Shown one piece after another: positions 6,684-15,815 of a stretch of 16,206 nucleotides of DNA; within the stretch, counting starts at the first letter, position 1; every line of letters starts with the position of its first letter. Position numbers and translations under genes: made by a program. Origin of the DNA: Acidimicrobiales bacterium (GTDB lineage Bacteria > Actinomycetota > Acidimicrobiia > Acidimicrobiales > Iamiaceae). Location: contig JAGQSI010000013.1 in the NCBI GenBank assembly GCA_020439605.1, positions 1 through 16,206 of the forward strand. Reading direction: 5' to 3'. The notes under the pieces are model-generated. The model did no database searches and was not told the origin of the DNA. It saw nothing but the letters and a program-made list of their open reading frames with translations.

Positions 6684-7724
6684 CTAGCCGAGTTGAACCG
6701 GCGTTGAACCTTGGTTGGCACGCAACTGCCCGCACGCCGCGTCAATCTCGGTGCCCCTGGTTCTTCGGATGGTTGCGTTGATGCCCAGACGTTCGAGCGT
6801 GTCGGCGAAGGTTCGCACCCGACCCGGCGGAGTTCCGCGAACCATGTAGCCGGGAGTTGGGTTGAGCGGTATGAGGTTCACATGAGCCCGCAATGGTCGG
6901 GCATAGTCCGCTAGCTCTTGAGCGTGGCGATCGGTGTCGTTGACCCCATCTATTAGGGCCCACTCAAATGAAAGTCTTCTGTGCGTGGCCTCTACATAGG
7001 CATGGCACGCGTCCGCTAGTTCATCTAGCGGGTAGCGACGGTTGATGGGAACCAACTCATCTCGCTCTTGATCGTTGGCCAGATGTAGGGAGACCGCGAG
7101 ATTCACAGGAAGTGCTTCGGTTGTGAGACGTCGTATCCCAGGCACAATGCCCACCGTTGAGATCGTGATGTGACGAGCCCCGATCCCGAGGTCGTCGTGG
7201 ATGCGTTCCACGGATCGCCAGGTGCGTTCGTAGTTGGCGAATGGTTCTCCCATACCCATGAACACGATGTTGGAGAGACGCCGTCCCGACTTTGAGGCGG
7301 TTCTGCTGGCAACCGCCACCTGTTCGACGATCTCGCCGACGCTGAGATGGCGATCGAAGCCGGCTTGGCCCGTTGCGCAGAAACTGCACGCCATTGCACA
7401 ACCAGCTTGTGATGAGACACAAACGGTTGATCGCTCCGGGTAGTGCATGAGGACGGTCTCAACCTGTTTGGCGTCGTGAAGGTTCCACAGCCACTTGATC
7501 GTCTGTCCGTCGTCGCTGATCGACTCTGCCGCTTTGTTGAGAGCCGCTGGAAGTTTGGTGTTGACCATCGAACGCAAGACCTTTGGCACATTCGACCAGT
7601 CATCGGGTTCGGTGCAATGGCTATAGAGACCCTCCCATACCTGTGTGACGCGGTAGGAGGGTTCTCCGGCGAGTACCTCGCCTAGATCTTCTCGATCGAG
7701 GTCGTAGCGAGTTTGGTGGGTCAT
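6684..7724 (-). CDS. rlmN: RlmN: dual-specificity 23S rRNA/tRNA (adenine-2)-methyltransferase
   Basis: A 346-residue radical SAM enzyme that methylates C2 of A2503 in 23S rRNA and of A37 in some tRNAs. The cluster-binding motif CAMACSFC gives C109, C113 and C116. The two catalytic cysteines are C102 (TVCVSSQAGC, equivalent to E. coli C118) and C331 (GTEIDAACGQLR, equivalent to C355). The SAM motif MGMGEPFANY is at 156-165, and ISTVGIVPGI and NLIPLNPTPG are also typical. Length is normal. An A residue (CAMACSFCATGQ) sits where relatives vary, so nothing key is missing. Its ATG overlaps the stop of the MshD-like gene by four bases (ATGA), so translation is probably coupled and both genes share the promoter at 8385-8390. 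Confidence 0.96.
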   Translation of the reverse strand: MTHQTRYDLDREDLGEVLAGEPSYRVTQVWEGLYSHCTEPDDWSNVPKVLRSMVNTKLPAALNKAAESISDDGQTIKWLWNLHDAKQVETVLMHYPERSTVCVSSQAGCAMACSFCATGQAGFDRHLSVGEIVEQVAVASRTASKSGRRLSNIVFMGMGEPFANYERTWRSVERIHDDLGIGARHITISTVGIVPGIRRLTTEALPVNLAVSLHLANDQERDELVPINRRYPLDELADACHAYVEATHRRLSFEWALIDGVNDTDRHAQELADYARPLRAHVNLIPLNPTPGYMVRGTPPGRVRTFADTLERLGINATIRRTRGTEIDAACGQLRANQGSTPVQLG

Positions 7725-8377
7725 CGGTAGATCCTGCGGAGTTTGACGATCTCGAAGCCGAGGGACTCATAGAGGTTAAGTGCCGCTTTGTTGTCCGCCT
7801 CAACCCACAACATCGCGTTCGAGATCTCCATGTCCGACAAATGGTCCAAGCCCGCCAGGACCAAGGCCCGACCGTATCCCTTTGAGTTGTGGGCTGGATC
7901 TACGCCGATGACAAAGATCTCACCTAGTGCAGGGTCGGAATCTGTGGCCTTGTGGATTCGGGTCCAACAAGATCCAAGAATGCGATCTGGAGACTCTGGA
8001 TCGTCCACCACCAAGAACCCGTTGAGATCAACCCAGGGCTCAGCAAGGGTTTCTCCAAGGGTTTCGAGTGTCTGTGAGCCCTGCGATGGATGTGAACTGA
8101 ACGCCAAGTTGTTCTGTCGAACCCATTTGGTTTCATCGGAGCCGAGGCGAAACGATCGCGTGTCAATGGAGCGAAGACCTTGGCGGCAATCATGGTCTTC
8201 GGGAACTGGTAGGGGCCTGCGCATCTGAAAGAGTTCTCGCCAAGGGTGTAACCCCAGCGAATGAGCAACCTTCTTGGGAATGTGGGGGTCCGTTGAACGC
8301 TCGCTGTCCCAGCTCAGCTCGATGCCATTCGGGCCTAGGTCTGTGACCACCATCTCGATTGTTGTGGGGGTGGTCAT
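7721..8377 (-). CDS. mshD: Mycothiol synthase-like GNAT acetyltransferase, short N-terminal half
   Basis: A 218-residue protein resembling MshD, which acetylates Cys-GlcN-Ins with acetyl-CoA in the last step of mycothiol synthesis. The C-terminal GNAT domain is well kept: KWVRQNNLAFSSHPSQG (84-100), PWVDLNGFLVV (114-124), GSCWTRIH (135-142), GEIFVIGVDPAHNSKGYGRA (152-171) with the acetyl-CoA loop, and ADNKAALNLYESLGF (194-208). Before it are only about 84 residues, including LHPWRELFQMRRPLPVP (43-59). Classical MshD has two full GNAT domains in about 300 residues, so the first domain is reduced. ATG 8377 has a TAGCGT box seven bases upstream. It is the first gene of a coupled pair with rlmN. 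A different GNAT substrate cannot be excluded. Confidence 0.78.
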   Translation of the reverse strand: MTTPTTIEMVVTDLGPNGIELSWDSERSTDPHIPKKVAHSLGLHPWRELFQMRRPLPVPEDHDCRQGLRSIDTRSFRLGSDETKWVRQNNLAFSSHPSQGSQTLETLGETLAEPWVDLNGFLVVDDPESPDRILGSCWTRIHKATDSDPALGEIFVIGVDPAHNSKGYGRALVLAGLDHLSDMEISNAMLWVEADNKAALNLYESLGFEIVKLRRIYR

Positions 8378-8384
8378 GGATCCA

Positions 8385-8390
8385 ACGCTA
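8385..8390 (-). promoter_or_regulatory. -10 box for the mshD-rlmN pair
   Basis: TAGCGT on the minus strand, seven bases before the ATG at 8377. It fits TANNNT and a leaderless transcript. No good -35 box is seen. Confidence 0.5.
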
Positions 8391-8485
8391 CCTGCACAAT
8401 CACCTCGTTATGCCTTGAGCGCCGCCGACCGAAAAGCCCTGCTTTTGGCCCGGAGTCTCTGGGAAAGTACGAGCTTTCACACTTA

Positions 8486-8501
8486 TGTGACAAAGGTCAT
8501 A
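8486..8501 (+). promoter_or_regulatory. CRP/FNR-like palindromic site
   Basis: TGTGA-N6-TCATA differs from the CRP/GlxR consensus half-sites (TGTGA-N6-TCACA) at one base. It lies about 80 bases upstream of the predicted start of the small RNA. Binding is inferred only from the pattern. Confidence 0.35.
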
Positions 8502-8526
8502 GCAATTTGGGACGTAAATCCCTTCA

Positions 8527-8546
8527 AATGACACACTTAGGTCATT
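8527..8546. promoter_or_regulatory. Operator-like inverted repeat at the small-RNA promoter
   Basis: AATGAC (8527-8532) and GTCATT (8541-8546) are perfect inverted arms around ACACTTAG. Allowing one extra A, the arms extend to TTCA/TGAA. The repeat covers the -35 region of the TATATT promoter, so a bound regulator could control it. Confidence 0.4.
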
Positions 8547-8555
8547 GAATGTGGC

Positions 8556-8561
8556 TATATT
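8556..8561 (+). promoter_or_regulatory. -10 box of the candidate small RNA
   Basis: TATATT is the best -10 match in this gap. A start about 7 bases downstream (near 8568) would place the first hairpin at the very 5' end of the transcript. There is no clear -35 at 16-18 bases; the inverted repeat occupies that position. Confidence 0.5.
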
Positions 8562-8567
8562 GGTCTC

Positions 8568-8662
8568 AGACCAGGTACCCGCCACCTGGTCCCTCGCGAC
8601 GCCGGGATCCGCCGCCTGGTGTCGCTGCATCGCCGCCCTTCGGGGCGGCGATGCTGTTTTTT
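8568..8662 (+). ncRNA. Candidate small RNA with two C-rich-loop hairpins and a terminator
   Basis: Three hairpins follow each other. Hairpin 1 pairs 8569-8576 with 8584-8591 (8 bp) around the loop ACCCGCC. Hairpin 2 pairs 8596-8606 with 8615-8625 (11 bp, two G-U pairs) around ATCCGCCG. The loop plus 3' arm is duplicated: CCGCCACCTGGT at 8579-8590 and CCGCCGCCTGGT at 8609-8620. Hairpin 3 is a strong terminator. A TATATT box lies just upstream. The layout of two C-rich loops plus a terminator recalls the actinobacterial 6C RNA class, but the loops have fewer than six consecutive C residues, so membership is only suggested. It could act in trans on GGCGG sequences, or in cis as a leader of the 65-aa gene downstream. 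The 5' end is estimated. Confidence 0.6.
8627..8662 (+). terminator. Rho-independent terminator with a perfect 12-bp stem
   Basis: GCATCGCCGCCC (8627-8638) pairs perfectly with GGGCGGCGATGC (8643-8654) around a TTCG tetraloop and is followed by TG and six T (8657-8662). It ends the candidate small RNA and stands upstream of the small gene at 8689. Confidence 0.88.
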
Positions 8663-8688
8663 CCCCGAAGGTGATCCAGACTTTCGCA

Positions 8689-8886
8689 ATGACGATCTCC
8701 TTGGACTCGCAGCTTTCTGCCCTGAACGCATCGATCGAGGAGCTCGCAGCTCGTTCGGCGGTTCTCGCTAATACCCTTGAGGAGGCGCATGAGGCCGAGG
8801 CATGCACCGCTCTGTTTGAGGTTGAGCGTTCGTTACGAATGGCATCGCGATCAGCGGATCGCGCCAGAAGAGCGCTGTCCAAATGA
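8689..8886 (+). CDS. Small helical protein of unknown function
   Basis: A 65-residue protein, MTISLDSQLSALNASIEELA onward, rich in Ala, Glu, Arg and Leu. It has heptad-like spacing that suggests two amphipathic helices or a short coiled coil, and a basic end (ADRARRALSK). Codon use looks like that of the neighbouring genes, so I regard it as real. ATG 8689 is preceded by GAAGG at 15-19 bases, too far for a good ribosome site; GTG 8671 is an in-frame alternative that would add six residues. I see no promoter between the terminator at 8662 and this start, so expression may depend on read-through of the small-RNA terminator. It lies upstream of hisD in the same direction. I do not recognise a family. 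Confidence 0.6.
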   Translation: MTISLDSQLSALNASIEELAARSAVLANTLEEAHEAEACTALFEVERSLRMASRSADRARRALSK

Positions 8887-8911
8887 GCCGATCCCATTTG
8901 GGGTGCTCTGT

Positions 8912-8926
8912 GTGGGAGAAACCCAC
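8912..8926 (+). terminator. Weak hairpin after the small gene
   Basis: GTGGG (8912-8916) and CCCAC (8922-8926) form a perfect 5-bp stem around AGAAA, 25 bases after the stop of the 65-aa gene. There is no T-run, so termination here is doubtful. Confidence 0.25.
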
Positions 8927-8929
8927 TTA

Positions 8930-8948
8930 GGGCAATGCTGTAGTGCCC
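8930..8948 (+). promoter_or_regulatory. Inverted repeat just upstream of the hisD -10 box
   Basis: GGGCA (8930-8934) and TGCCC (8944-8948) are inverted arms with a 9-base gap, ending two bases before the TAGCCT box. The place suits an operator for the his cluster. No his-leader peptide or T-box is seen. Confidence 0.3.
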
Positions 8949-8950
8949 AT

Positions 8951-8956
8951 TAGCCT
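8951..8956 (+). promoter_or_regulatory. -10 box of hisD
   Basis: TAGCCT, seven bases before the GTG at 8964. It fits TANNNT and a leaderless mRNA, and it is the reason for preferring 8964 over the upstream GTG at 8943. Confidence 0.5.
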
Positions 8957-8963
8957 GCGAATC

Positions 8964-10253
8964 GTGCTCAACCGACTTGACCTGCGTGGCGCAGGCAACA
9001 ACCTGAGGGGAAAACTCCCTCGTCCACACCAGGCAGCCGAAGGCCCGATAGAGGCGGTCAAGGAGATCCTCGCAGCAGTTAGCGAACGTGGCGATGATGC
9101 AGTGCGAGAATTCACCGAGCGATTTGATGGGGTCTCGCCACAGTCTCTGAGGGTGAGCGAGGCCGAGTTGGAAGCAGCAGCGGCCAACGTCGATCCACAA
9201 CTGCGTGCGGCGCTTGAGGCAGCGGCAGAAGCAATACGGGACTTTCACCTCCAACAGGTTGTTGGTAGCCACACCTATGAGCGAGACGGAATTGTGATCG
9301 AGGGTCGCAAGATCCCCGTAGATCGCGCTGGTTGCTACGTGCCGGGCGGTCGTGCCATCTATCCAAGTACGGTGCTCATGACCGCCATTCCGGCCAAGGT
9401 TGCCGGGGTGGGTCAGGTTGTGTTGTGCGTGCCACCGGACTCAACGGGCCATGTCCCAGCGCCAACGTTGGCCGCTGCTGCAATAGCGGGAGTGGACGAG
9501 GTATATGCCATCGGCGGGGCACAGGCCATTGGGGCCATGGCCTACGGAACCGAATCGATAGAACCAGTAGATGTGATTGTTGGGCCGGGCAACATCTTTG
9601 TGGCCTTGGCCAAGCGAGAGGTTGCCGGGCTGGTTGGGGTTCCGTCCTCGTTCCCTGGTCCATCTGAGGTGGTGGTGATTGCAGACGCCAGTGCGCCAGC
9701 CGAATTCGCTGCAGTGGATGTGATCCTTCAAGCAGAACATGGCCCCGGTGGACTGGCATGGCTGATCAGTTGGGACGAGGCTGCACTCGATTCGATATGC
9801 GCCGAGATCGAGTCCCAGGTTTCTACGGCGCCGCGTAGAGAAGACATTGAGTCCACCTTTGCCCAAGGTGGATATGGCGTGCTCGTGGATTCCCCCGAGC
9901 AGGCAGTGGCAGTGGCCAACACCATTGCCCCAGAACACCTCGAGATCATTACAGAAGACCCACAGAGCCTCGTGGACCAGGTGCGCCATGCTGGTGCGGT
10001 TTTCTGCGGCCCGTGGGCACCAGCCTCGATTGGGGATTACATGGCGGGACCCAGCCACGTCCTACCAACAGATGGAACCGCTAGGTTCGGATCCGCTCTC
10101 ACGGTTGCGGATTTCCAGAAGGACGTTCACGTCATCACGATCAGTCGAGATGGCCTGGAGAATGCGGCGCCAACAGTCGCTGCTATCGCCGAGGCAGAGG
10201 GGCTATCGGCTCATGCTGACTCCGTGCTCAAGAGAATGAGTGCCCGACCATGA
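8964..10253 (+). CDS. hisD: Histidinol dehydrogenase
   Basis: A 429-residue zinc enzyme that oxidises L-histidinol to L-histidine in two NAD-dependent steps, the end of histidine synthesis. The zinc and catalytic residues are in their expected contexts: Q256 and H259 in LQAEHGPGG, E324 and H325 in APEHLEI, D358 and H365 in GDYMAGPSHVLPT, and H417 in LSAHADSVL. The GCYVPGGRAIYPSTVLMTAI and VDVIVGPGN segments are also diagnostic. The GTG at 8964 starts the protein at VLNRLDLRG, as in relatives, and sits seven bases after TAGCCT; the GTG at 8943 would add seven residues. It is the first gene of the his run and its stop overlaps the hisC start by four bases. Confidence 0.96.
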   Translation: MLNRLDLRGAGNNLRGKLPRPHQAAEGPIEAVKEILAAVSERGDDAVREFTERFDGVSPQSLRVSEAELEAAAANVDPQLRAALEAAAEAIRDFHLQQVVGSHTYERDGIVIEGRKIPVDRAGCYVPGGRAIYPSTVLMTAIPAKVAGVGQVVLCVPPDSTGHVPAPTLAAAAIAGVDEVYAIGGAQAIGAMAYGTESIEPVDVIVGPGNIFVALAKREVAGLVGVPSSFPGPSEVVVIADASAPAEFAAVDVILQAEHGPGGLAWLISWDEAALDSICAEIESQVSTAPRREDIESTFAQGGYGVLVDSPEQAVAVANTIAPEHLEIITEDPQSLVDQVRHAGAVFCGPWAPASIGDYMAGPSHVLPTDGTARFGSALTVADFQKDVHVITISRDGLENAAPTVAAIAEAEGLSAHADSVLKRMSARP

Positions 10254-12561: not shown

Positions 12562-13797
12562 ATGAAGCCGGTGCGCACAGTACTGGTAGGGATCTTGTCC
12601 CTTGGTGTCATGATCCCTGGCTGCTCATGTGATGTCACCGCGTCCAATTCTGGGTGCCGGGATTCGTCGGAACGGTTGGTAAAGGCTGCTGCTCAAGGCG
12701 ATCTTGACGTTGTGTTGAGCGAATTGGCCAGCGGTACCTCACCAGACGTTGTTGACGACAGCGGCAACCGGGCTCTGACCTGTGCCGGGCCTGCTGGTCG
12801 AGTCGAGATCGTGGAGGAATTGCTGAAAGCGGGAGCGGACCCGAACGTGACATCCAGAGACGGAGACACCGCAACCACCGATGCCATTCGATTCTGTCGA
12901 AGTGAAGTGCTTGGCTTGCTCCTCGATGCTGGCGCAGATCCAGACATTGGCTCACACGGGAACGCTCCAGTGACCCAAGCGGTTGATCGTGGAGCTGTCG
13001 AATCCGTGGACATGCTCATCGCCCACAACGCGGATATGTCGAAGCTGGGCCGCCAGACCCTGAACGACTTGTCGGATCAGGAAAGCACCTCACCGTGTCC
13101 TGTGCCCACCGCTCAAGGTCGTTCTGAGTCATTGCTGAAGTTAGGCGAAGCCGGCGCAGATCCATCAACCGTGCTCTCGCTGGCTGCGTGGTGGGATCTT
13201 CCCAAGCCCCTCAGTGATGCGTTGAAGCGAGGAGCGGACCCAGATGAGGGAGAATTGATTGCTGATCTTGGGAGCTTCTCGTGTGATAGCTCAATCCCAA
13301 TTGAAGACCTACAGTCGAAACCCTCGGGCAGTGCGGCTGGGTCCACAACCGCGGTTGCGGTAACCACCACAATCGCGCGTCCGGTGGCTGGCGTGAACAG
13401 ATGCGCCCCGATCGTTGGGTTGATGCGCTTGGCCTTCGGAGATGAGGCCGCTCTAGCAGGTGGCCTCGTCACCGCCACCGGTAGCACCGAGGCGGGGCAG
13501 GCTACGGAGCCGCCAACCCCGTTGCGCTCTCCGCCACTGATCGATCTTGCATGGTGGGGCGATGTTGAGTCCGTGAGATTGATGCTCGATAACGGAGCAA
13601 ACATGTACGTAGAAGGGGAGCGTGGGCTCACCCCACTTCATGCCGCTGCAGCAGTTGGACAGGTGGAGGTGGTTCAGTTCTTGCTGGATAAGGGCGCCAG
13701 CGGGGTGTCAATGCCAGGGATTCCAAAGCCGTCCGAGTTGGCCCGCCGTGGGGGACATCTGGAACTGGCAGAGACTTTGAATGCCACTGGATCCTAG
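12562..13797 (+). CDS. Ankyrin-repeat putative lipoprotein inserted in the his cluster
   Basis: A 411-residue protein. Residues 1-21 form a short basic start, a hydrophobic stretch and IPGC, close to a lipobox with C21 as the lipid site (Pro at -2 is unusual). Several ankyrin-like repeats follow: around 37-66, 67-97 (ALTCAGPAGRVEIVEELLKA, GADPN), 100-130 (LLDAGADPDI), 132-160, 190-228 (GADPS, GADPDEG) and, clearest, 325-390 (PLIDLAWWGDVESVRLMLDN then GLTPLHAAAAVGQVEVVQFL). A low-complexity Ser/Thr/Pro-rich linker at about 252-280 separates two ankyrin blocks. Ankyrin repeats bind proteins; export or lipid anchoring suggests an extracytoplasmic role. Nothing ties it chemically to histidine synthesis. 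It has a TAGGGT box and sits between hisH and hisA, splitting the run. Confidence 0.82.
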   Translation: MKPVRTVLVGILSLGVMIPGCSCDVTASNSGCRDSSERLVKAAAQGDLDVVLSELASGTSPDVVDDSGNRALTCAGPAGRVEIVEELLKAGADPNVTSRDGDTATTDAIRFCRSEVLGLLLDAGADPDIGSHGNAPVTQAVDRGAVESVDMLIAHNADMSKLGRQTLNDLSDQESTSPCPVPTAQGRSESLLKLGEAGADPSTVLSLAAWWDLPKPLSDALKRGADPDEGELIADLGSFSCDSSIPIEDLQSKPSGSAAGSTTAVAVTTTIARPVAGVNRCAPIVGLMRLAFGDEAALAGGLVTATGSTEAGQATEPPTPLRSPPLIDLAWWGDVESVRLMLDNGANMYVEGERGLTPLHAAAAVGQVEVVQFLLDKGASGVSMPGIPKPSELARRGGHLELAETLNATGS

Positions 13798-14625: not shown

Positions 14626-15399
14626 ATGCAAACCGCCAGAGTTATTCCCTGTCTCGATGTAACAGCCGGACGAGTGGTCAAAGGCGTGAACTTCGTGGAC
14701 CTTCGCGACGCTGGAGATCCCGTTGAGCTTGCCGCTAGATACGACGCCGAAGGCGCAGACGAGCTGGTGTTCTTGGACATCACTGCGAGTTCCGATGCCA
14801 GAAACACAATGGTGGACGTGGTGGCGAGAACAGCCGAAGAGGTCTTTATCCCGCTGACCGTTGGCGGAGGAATCAGAACAGTTGATGACGCACGCACCAT
14901 GCTGCGCGCTGGGGCAGACAAGGTGTCACTGAATACCGCAGCGATAGATCGCCCCGAGGTGATCTCAGAAGTGGCCTCCGAGTTCGGTACACAGTGCGCT
15001 GTTGTGGCGATAGATGCCAGGAGACGAGACGCGTCGGTTCCAAGCCAGGGCTGGGGGGTTTTCACCCATGGAGGAAGAAACCCAACTCAACTCGACGCCA
15101 TCGAATGGGCGGTACAAGCCGTGGCTAGAGGCGCTGGCGAGATCCTTCTCACATCCATGGATCGAGATGGAACCCGCGATGGTTTCGATCTTGAGCTCAC
15201 CAACGCCATCAGCAGTGCGCTCAACGTGCCGGTTATCGCCAGCGGAGGAGTGGGCAAGCTCTCACACCTGGTGGACGGGGTGATCAAAGGTGGTGCAGAC
15301 GCAGTACTGGCAGCCTCCATTTTTCACTTCGGTGAATACAGCGTGGCCGAGGCCAAGCAGGAGATGGCAGCGGCTGGGATCGCGGTGAGGCCGGCATGA
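14626..15399 (+). CDS. hisF: Imidazole glycerol phosphate synthase, cyclase subunit HisF
   Basis: A 257-residue TIM barrel that joins ammonia from HisH to PRFAR, giving imidazoleglycerol phosphate and AICAR. The catalytic acids are D11 ([19 protein letters not shown]) and D130 ([10 protein letters not shown]). Phosphate-binding segments are [12 protein letters not shown] (78-89), ASGGVG (205-210) and [11 protein letters not shown] (229-239); [15 protein letters not shown] (174-188) is also diagnostic. A Shine-Dalgarno-like AGGGGA is at 14609-14614, eleven bases before the ATG. The gene lies 19 bases after hisA and its stop overlaps the GroES-like gene by four bases. Confidence 0.96.
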
Positions 15400-15815
15400 C
15401 CGATACCGTCAAAGACGTGAGCGACGACGCACAAGCAGCCACCGAGGTAGAAATCGAGGACAAGCCCGAAGCCAAGCAGCGGACCTTCGCGGCATCGAGA
15501 CAGGACAAGTTGCCCGTCAAGATGATGTCTGATCGCATCTTGGTGGACCTCGAAGCAGACGGTGAACGGCGCTCCACCGGTGGCATCTTGATTCCCGCGA
15601 CTGCCCAGATCAGTCGCCGCTTGGCGTGGGGCGAAGTGGTTGCGGTCGGGCCCAACGTGCGAGCCATGGAAGTTGGCGATCAGGTCCTTTTCAACCCCGA
15701 GGACCGCTACGAGGTCGAGGTGCGTGGCAGCGACTACCTCATCCTCAGAGAGCGTGACATTCACGCTGTTGCATCCAAACGACTAGAGGAAGGCTCAACA
15801 GGGCTCTACCTCTAA
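15396..15815 (+). CDS. GroES-like (Cpn10) co-chaperonin homologue
   Basis: A 139-residue protein with a Cpn10 fold at about 38-127. The GroES pattern starts at [15 protein letters not shown] (39-53). The mobile loop, [15 protein letters not shown] (57-71), keeps the GGIxxP element that contacts Gro[22 protein letters not shown] (79-98) is the barrel core, and [12 protein letters not shown] (114-125) is the usual C-terminal strand. It differs from housekeeping GroES by an acidic, probably disordered 36-residue N-terminal extension, a longer loop after ATAQ (ISRRLAW) and a short C-terminal tail. No groEL is adjacent. The ATG overlaps the hisF stop (ATGA), so its translation is coupled to hisF. 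It may be a specialised Cpn10 paralogue; a chaperone role is inferred. Confidence 0.85.

Follow-up and report, generated by a model that had tools for sequence, protein, structure and literature searches.

6C RNA (Rfam RF01066) is a small actinobacterial RNA with C-rich loops, which we take to be the same as the mycobacterial B11 RNA. Its clear copies (e.g., at loci L149–L151 of our collection) have loops consisting of around six consecutive Cs, the second loop lying in the terminator itself. The C-rich loop of B11 is reported to act on guanine tracts adjoining ribosome-binding sites (PMC12395582). In Xanthomonadaceae, sX13 is described as a 115-nt RNA with three stable stems that acts on G-rich targets independently of Hfq and has C-rich loops made up of C4 or C5 runs, unlike those of the RNA reported here (PMC3771888). 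Small RNAs known to carry C-rich loops target G-rich sequences close to start codons (PMC3771888, PMC12395582). CcsR1 (RF02791) is a CCUCCUCCC-motif RNA, which in its Rfam alignment combines a C-rich motif with a terminator hairpin, as does the RNA considered below. On our best reading, sX13 and 6C/B11 would be the nearest models for its action.

The window analyzed here is the whole 16,206-nucleotide stretch of contig JAGQSI010000013.1 (GenBank assembly GCA_020439605.1), a 16.2-kb contig from an Acidimicrobiales bacterium of the Iamiaceae, whose genome is 70% complete in 556 contigs and yielded a single copy of the RNA. An initial annotation, made from the letters of the window, had proposed a new small RNA extending from a first hairpin to a terminator. 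The comparative sequence evidence upholds this proposal: the loops are conserved, the stems change in a compensating fashion, and at the gathering threshold no Rfam 15 family matches anywhere in the window. It looks like a real, conserved RNA and a new family within the known kind of C-rich-loop regulatory RNAs. No report on small RNAs of Acidimicrobiia is present among the literature matches listed, some of which came from broad queries whose listed papers were unrelated. Likewise, the main text of two ncRNA-discovery papers contains none of the search terms Acidimicrob-, Ilumatobacter, hisD or actinobacter-.

Predicted structure and promoter of the RNA gene

The segment 8565–8662 folds into exactly three hairpins at −62.5 kcal/mol, as against −37.0 (SD 3.6) kcal/mol for 200 dinucleotide shuffles, none of which folds as low (z −7.0). 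Direct reading confirms the twin hairpins with a near-identical loop and 3′ arm that had been noted initially, the repeated motif occurring as CCGCCACCTGGT at 8579–8590 and as CCGCCGCCTGGT at 8609–8620 with a spacing of 30 bases. The perfect 12-bp terminator is equally correct: its arms (8627–8638 and 8643–8654) form an uninterrupted inverted repeat around TTCG (8639–8642), with six Ts at 8657–8662. The claim that the TATATT box is placed for an RNA starting at hairpin 1 also stands on sequence grounds; the predicted 5′ end derives from this box and the predicted 3′ end from the T run (Table 1).

Table 1. Features at the RNA locus, in positions of the window
Feature	Coordinates	Strand	Basis
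Putative −10 box TATATT, assigned as the RNA's own promoter	8556..8561	+	Read from sequence
Predicted small RNA gene of about 95 nt	8568..8662	+	Fold, model matches, covariation
Hairpin 1: 8 bp, loop ACCCGCC (8577–8583)	8569..8591	+	Fold, alignment A2, loop conservation
Hairpin 2: 11 bp, loop AUCCGCCG (8607–8614)	8596..8625	+	Fold, alignment A2, loop conservation
Intrinsic terminator: 12-bp stem around TTCG, followed by TG and T6	8627..8662	+	Sequence, fold, alignment A2
mshD-like GNAT acetyltransferase, divergent neighbor	7721..8377	−	Pfam GNAT; NCBIfam TIGR03448
65-aa ORF without a Pfam match	8689..8886	+	Strand relative to the RNA varies among loci
hisD, which opens the his cluster	8943..10253	+	Pfam

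In 61 of the 75 aligned members of the family (alignment A3, see below), hairpin 1 is preceded at a distance of at most 22 nt, and mostly of 10–14 nt, by a TAnnnT box, as compared to two and one of 75 in control windows of the same size. No −35 consensus is apparent in the column table of the aligned members. From the −10 box and the terminator we infer transcription of the RNA, which would start from its own box and end at its own terminator. Accordingly, the RNA has the makings of a stand-alone gene with a putative promoter box and terminator of its own.

Covariation of the stems

We aligned 25 sequences with MAFFT (A2), without fitting them to any structure, and evaluated the structure of the window's own RNA on this alignment. 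Standard pairs occupy 91.0% of the pair cells, against 82.1% (SD 0.7) after shuffling of columns, and both partners have changed in 19 of the 31 pairs, where shuffled columns give 6.7 (SD 1.4); neither value was reached in 500 shuffles. The covariation score is 0.285, compared to 0.139 for shuffled alignments (again 0/500) and 0.04 to 0.15 for structures slid along the alignment. The double-sided changes are spread over hairpin 1 (7 of 8 pairs), hairpin 2 (5 of 11) and the terminator (7 of 12). Compensatory changes in relatives, for which the initial annotation had suggested looking, are therefore present. Its further point that G–U pairs preserve the fold of hairpin 2 proved correct: columns 35 and 58, a G–U pair in the window, switch among paired states across the 25 sequences (G–U 10, A–U 8, G–C 6 and U–G 1).

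A covariance model built from A2 (R1) was used to collect further members, and 75 of the 76 source sequences were realigned as A3, with L183 (from genome G315) dropped for failing E<=0.001 and repeat contigs counted once (L031 with L007, L033 with L015, L122 with L021, and L126 with L017). In A3, which is fitted to the model and hence leans towards it, 95.7% of the cells hold standard pairs and 30 of the 31 pairs are changed on both sides. As judged by comparative analysis, these alignments demonstrate selection at the RNA level on all three predicted hairpins. The alignment of the family could be put forward for inclusion in Rfam.

An ORF spans the window copy, and a coding reading of the region was considered and rejected. 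Lengths of the RNA fall into all three residues modulo 3 and stops occur in varying frames, an argument that is weak by itself as 33 of the 75 members lack a stop in every frame. The deciding evidence is the compensation between paired positions.

Phyletic distribution

A blastn search with a 126-base query finds the stretch in 21 of the 24 genomes of the family, the source genome included, with E values no worse than 3.4e-8. R1 matched 52 of 296 genomes of the class, 50 of which belong to the same order or nearer; the two outside the order are G175, with a good match (E 2.8e-8), and G315, with a far weaker one (E 0.024). Within the order, a second covariance model (R2) had matches in 157 of 298 genomes and in 102 of 171 genera; among the better genomes the count is 125 of 226. 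Within the family R2 again recovers 21 of 24 genomes, including the source, with no match in G003, G021 and G023 (79, 77 and 86% complete). Across the phylum it matched 14 of 396 genomes, every one of them in the order. The 141 order genomes in which R2 found no match include some that are 99% complete (G037, G102). These large scans scored only 10–14 candidates per genome; when 101 candidates per genome were scored in 41 genomes, 11 were still without a match.

Two matches were reported by 7 of the 157 genomes. In three of these, which belong to one genus (G691, G721 and G743), one copy occupies the customary position (L231, L233, L235) and the other a different neighborhood (L232, L234, L236), while in G768 both copies adjoin hisD (L237, L238). 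In G738, G820 and G836 one place each was read; L239 and L240 show an overlapping weak match on the reverse strand, and the second match of G820 may simply be its terminator matched again on the opposite strand, as in L239. We regard an undescribed family that is spread through the Acidimicrobiales and carries trans-acting loop seeds as a probable explanation when taken as a whole.

Loop conservation and proposed mode of action

Few columns of A3 vary as little as those of the loops, and most stem columns vary with compensation. Hairpin 1 keeps CCCGCC in 69 of 75 members and hairpin 2 keeps CCGCC in all 75, figures that somewhat overstate conservation, since the loops were part of the model by which the members were collected. 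The commonest loop of hairpin 1 is GGUUCCCGCCACC (42/75) and that of hairpin 2 usually GGGAUCCGCCGCC. In L169 and L171, hairpin 2 bears the loop most common in hairpin 1, which suggests that the two hairpins are equivalent and seem to serve the same ligand. As in the C-rich-loop trans-acting small RNAs, conserved C-rich apical loops are thus predicted to sit on varying stems.

CCCGCC is absent from hairpin 1 in six members, among them L009, L019, L165, L170 and L180. In L011 a −10-like box directly precedes hairpin 2, and the correspondingly shorter RNA folds with a z of −5.95. Given these departures in hairpin 1, hairpin 2 and the terminator form the most constant part of the RNA. The one-hairpin variants, second copies and losses would amount to a natural experiment on Hfq-free loop-seed small RNAs in high-GC bacteria. 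Hairpin 1 is not intact in two relatives from the same genus, L011:1479-1571 and L019:1503-1577 (−). We also weighed whether the loops pair with the 3′ arm of the terminator, where the window's genus has GGCGG, but set this aside since in other genera the terminator arms vary without constraint.

We think it probable, with moderate confidence, that the locus encodes a stand-alone structured RNA of about 95 nt, the loops of which pair in trans with G-rich mRNA without Hfq. Its CCCGCC and UCCGCC loops would be interchangeable seeds for G-rich (GGCGG-type) stretches in mRNAs made elsewhere, engaged via kissing or loop-to-linear contacts, and such pairing might block the translation or stability of those mRNAs independently of Hfq, a mode of action reported for sX13 and 6C/B11. 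Hfq was found in none of 25 genomes by a search that was positive in 5 of 14 control genomes. The conserved loops fit the predicted pairing with GGCGG targets.

A scan of predicted gene starts in two relatives revealed no GGCGG peak at the ribosome-binding position over 290 (G002) and 312 (G013) crude predicted starts. The highest G013 bin, with 34 occurrences at −24 to −17 as against 11–26 elsewhere, was not reproduced when a further 400 kb with 294 starts were sampled, in which it held 17. Hence, there is no reproducible GGCGG enrichment over the 896 crude predicted starts, a scan in which a small regulon would be invisible. The first gene caller gave poor starts and the second favored GTG, which accounts for most starts. 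A Shine–Dalgarno peak recurs in G013 (24 and 22 instances of GGAGG at −16 to −9) but is absent from the predicted starts of G002, attesting to the crudeness of the calls.

In the main rival to pairing in trans, which we consider rather unlikely, the two CCGCC hairpins would bind or sequester a nucleic-acid-binding protein instead of pairing with mRNA. CsrB sequesters CsrA in such a manner, and a pair of equivalent hairpins, each with the fixed loop closed by GG..CC, would suit a dimeric protein. Furthermore, fixed loops are equally suited to a protein ligand, and the start scans gave no target signal. Against this, we know of no protein that binds a CCGCC-loop motif, and CsrA is absent from 24 of 25 genomes, the sole carrier (G676) having no match to the RNA model, which makes a CsrA sponge very unlikely. 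CsrA was likewise not found in the source genome, at its 70% completeness. The lone CsrA gene, from a genome of the same order, lies at G676:C11:52276-52428.

The presence of the RNA across so many of the sampled genera, with fixed loops on drifting stems, makes it a good candidate for a central regulator. More tentatively, and with slightly less than even credence, we propose that it is a core post-transcriptional regulator of the Acidimicrobiales with two interchangeable YCCGCC seeds composed of G+C only, acting free of Hfq on a GGCGG-type regulon that is not marked by the Shine–Dalgarno sequence. Such a regulator would be ancient in the order, duplicated in one genus and reduced to one hairpin in some lineages.

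Relationship to 6C, sX13 and CcsR1

The initial annotation had offered a 6C-like identity as one option for the RNA. It shares with 6C/B11 an actinobacterial provenance, small size, GC-rich stems and C-rich apical loops. A strongly diverged true homologue of 6C—from the same phylum, with two C-rich loops, GC-rich stems and a terminator—would account for this likeness, and we judge it very improbable. The RF01066 model does not list the region 8350–8950 of the window even at E<=10, nor does it list L041 or L135, two diverged members of the family, at E<=5; the assignment to 6C is thus not borne out. The architectures also differ: clear 6C copies carry an oligo-C loop in the terminator, whereas the loops of the window RNA, CCCGCC and UCCGCC, both precede a separate terminator with a UUCG loop.

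Searches in both directions point the same way. RF01066 gave weak matches in 18 of 119 class genomes, none over its cut-off (47 bits), and R1 has no match at eight of these weak places (L111–L118). Across the phylum, RF01066 matched 12 of 149 genomes at E<=0.01, six of them over the cut-off. On 13 RF01066 match loci from these 12 genomes, six of which are over the cut-off, R1 produced four weak matches when E values of up to 10 were admitted; not one coincides with the RF01066 position, so that all 13 are missed there. Moreover, R2 found nothing outside the order among the 396 phylum genomes, though R1 had matched G175.

The best weak Rfam match of the window at E<=10 is sX13 (RF02232), at 27.4 bits against a cut-off of 50. 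As RF02232 is not listed in L041 or L135, we view this resemblance as one of form. CcsR1 scores 15.1 bits in the window against a cut-off of 65.3. CCUCC-type motifs resemble the anti-Shine–Dalgarno sequence; in contrast, the CCGCC of the window RNA does not match GGAGG.

Genomic neighborhood

The RNA usually lies in a stable setting. The mshD-like gene of the window scores 163.8 bits against TIGR03448 (cut-off 163.1), and mshD is upstream on the minus strand in 51 of the 53 loci that extend 1.3 kb or more in that direction. In 42 of these 53, nth lies on the plus strand between mshD and the RNA (with a TIGR01083 match in L031); it was not found at the window locus (8378–8555) or in nine others. 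Of the 51 loci that extend 1.4 kb or more downstream, 46 carry hisD or hisC there in the orientation of the RNA. A small ORF near the RNA was detected in 33 of 75 loci, on the plus strand in 18 and on the minus strand, opposite the RNA, in 15.

This linkage, together with the terminator at the end of the RNA, would suit control of the his operon in cis by a leader or attenuator, a reading that we nonetheless consider highly improbable. Five of the 51 loci, L142 included, have neither hisD nor hisC downstream; in L144 we take the downstream ORF to be hisA-like. The small ORF, where present, is opposite the RNA strand in 15 of the 33 loci, and inspection of A3 by eye reveals no conserved alternative partner for the terminator arms. 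In G012 (L021) the RNA is inverted, with the his genes running away on the other strand and mshD lying downstream. Further, the second copies in the three genomes of one genus lie away from his: none of mshD, nth, hisD, hisC and rlmN was found around L232, L234 and L236, and in L232 and L236, where the genes were read, the copy comes after a P-type ATPase gene. These second copies retain CCCGCC and AUCCGCCG on partly different stems, and L232 folds with a z of −7.25. Inversion and second copies together favor a predicted action in trans and render a his leader unlikely; the RNA is independent of its neighboring genes.

Finally, although hairpins form easily in GC-rich DNA, chance or a plain strong terminator accompanied by repeats has a negligible probability given the folding z-score of −7.0, the covariation, the conserved promoter position and the order-wide occurrence.

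An ankyrin-repeat protein gene (Pfam Ank_2) is situated inside the his gene cluster of the window at 12562–13797, and a GroES-like (Cpn10) gene at 15396–15815 lies between hisF and a phosphoribosyl-AMP cyclohydrolase gene.
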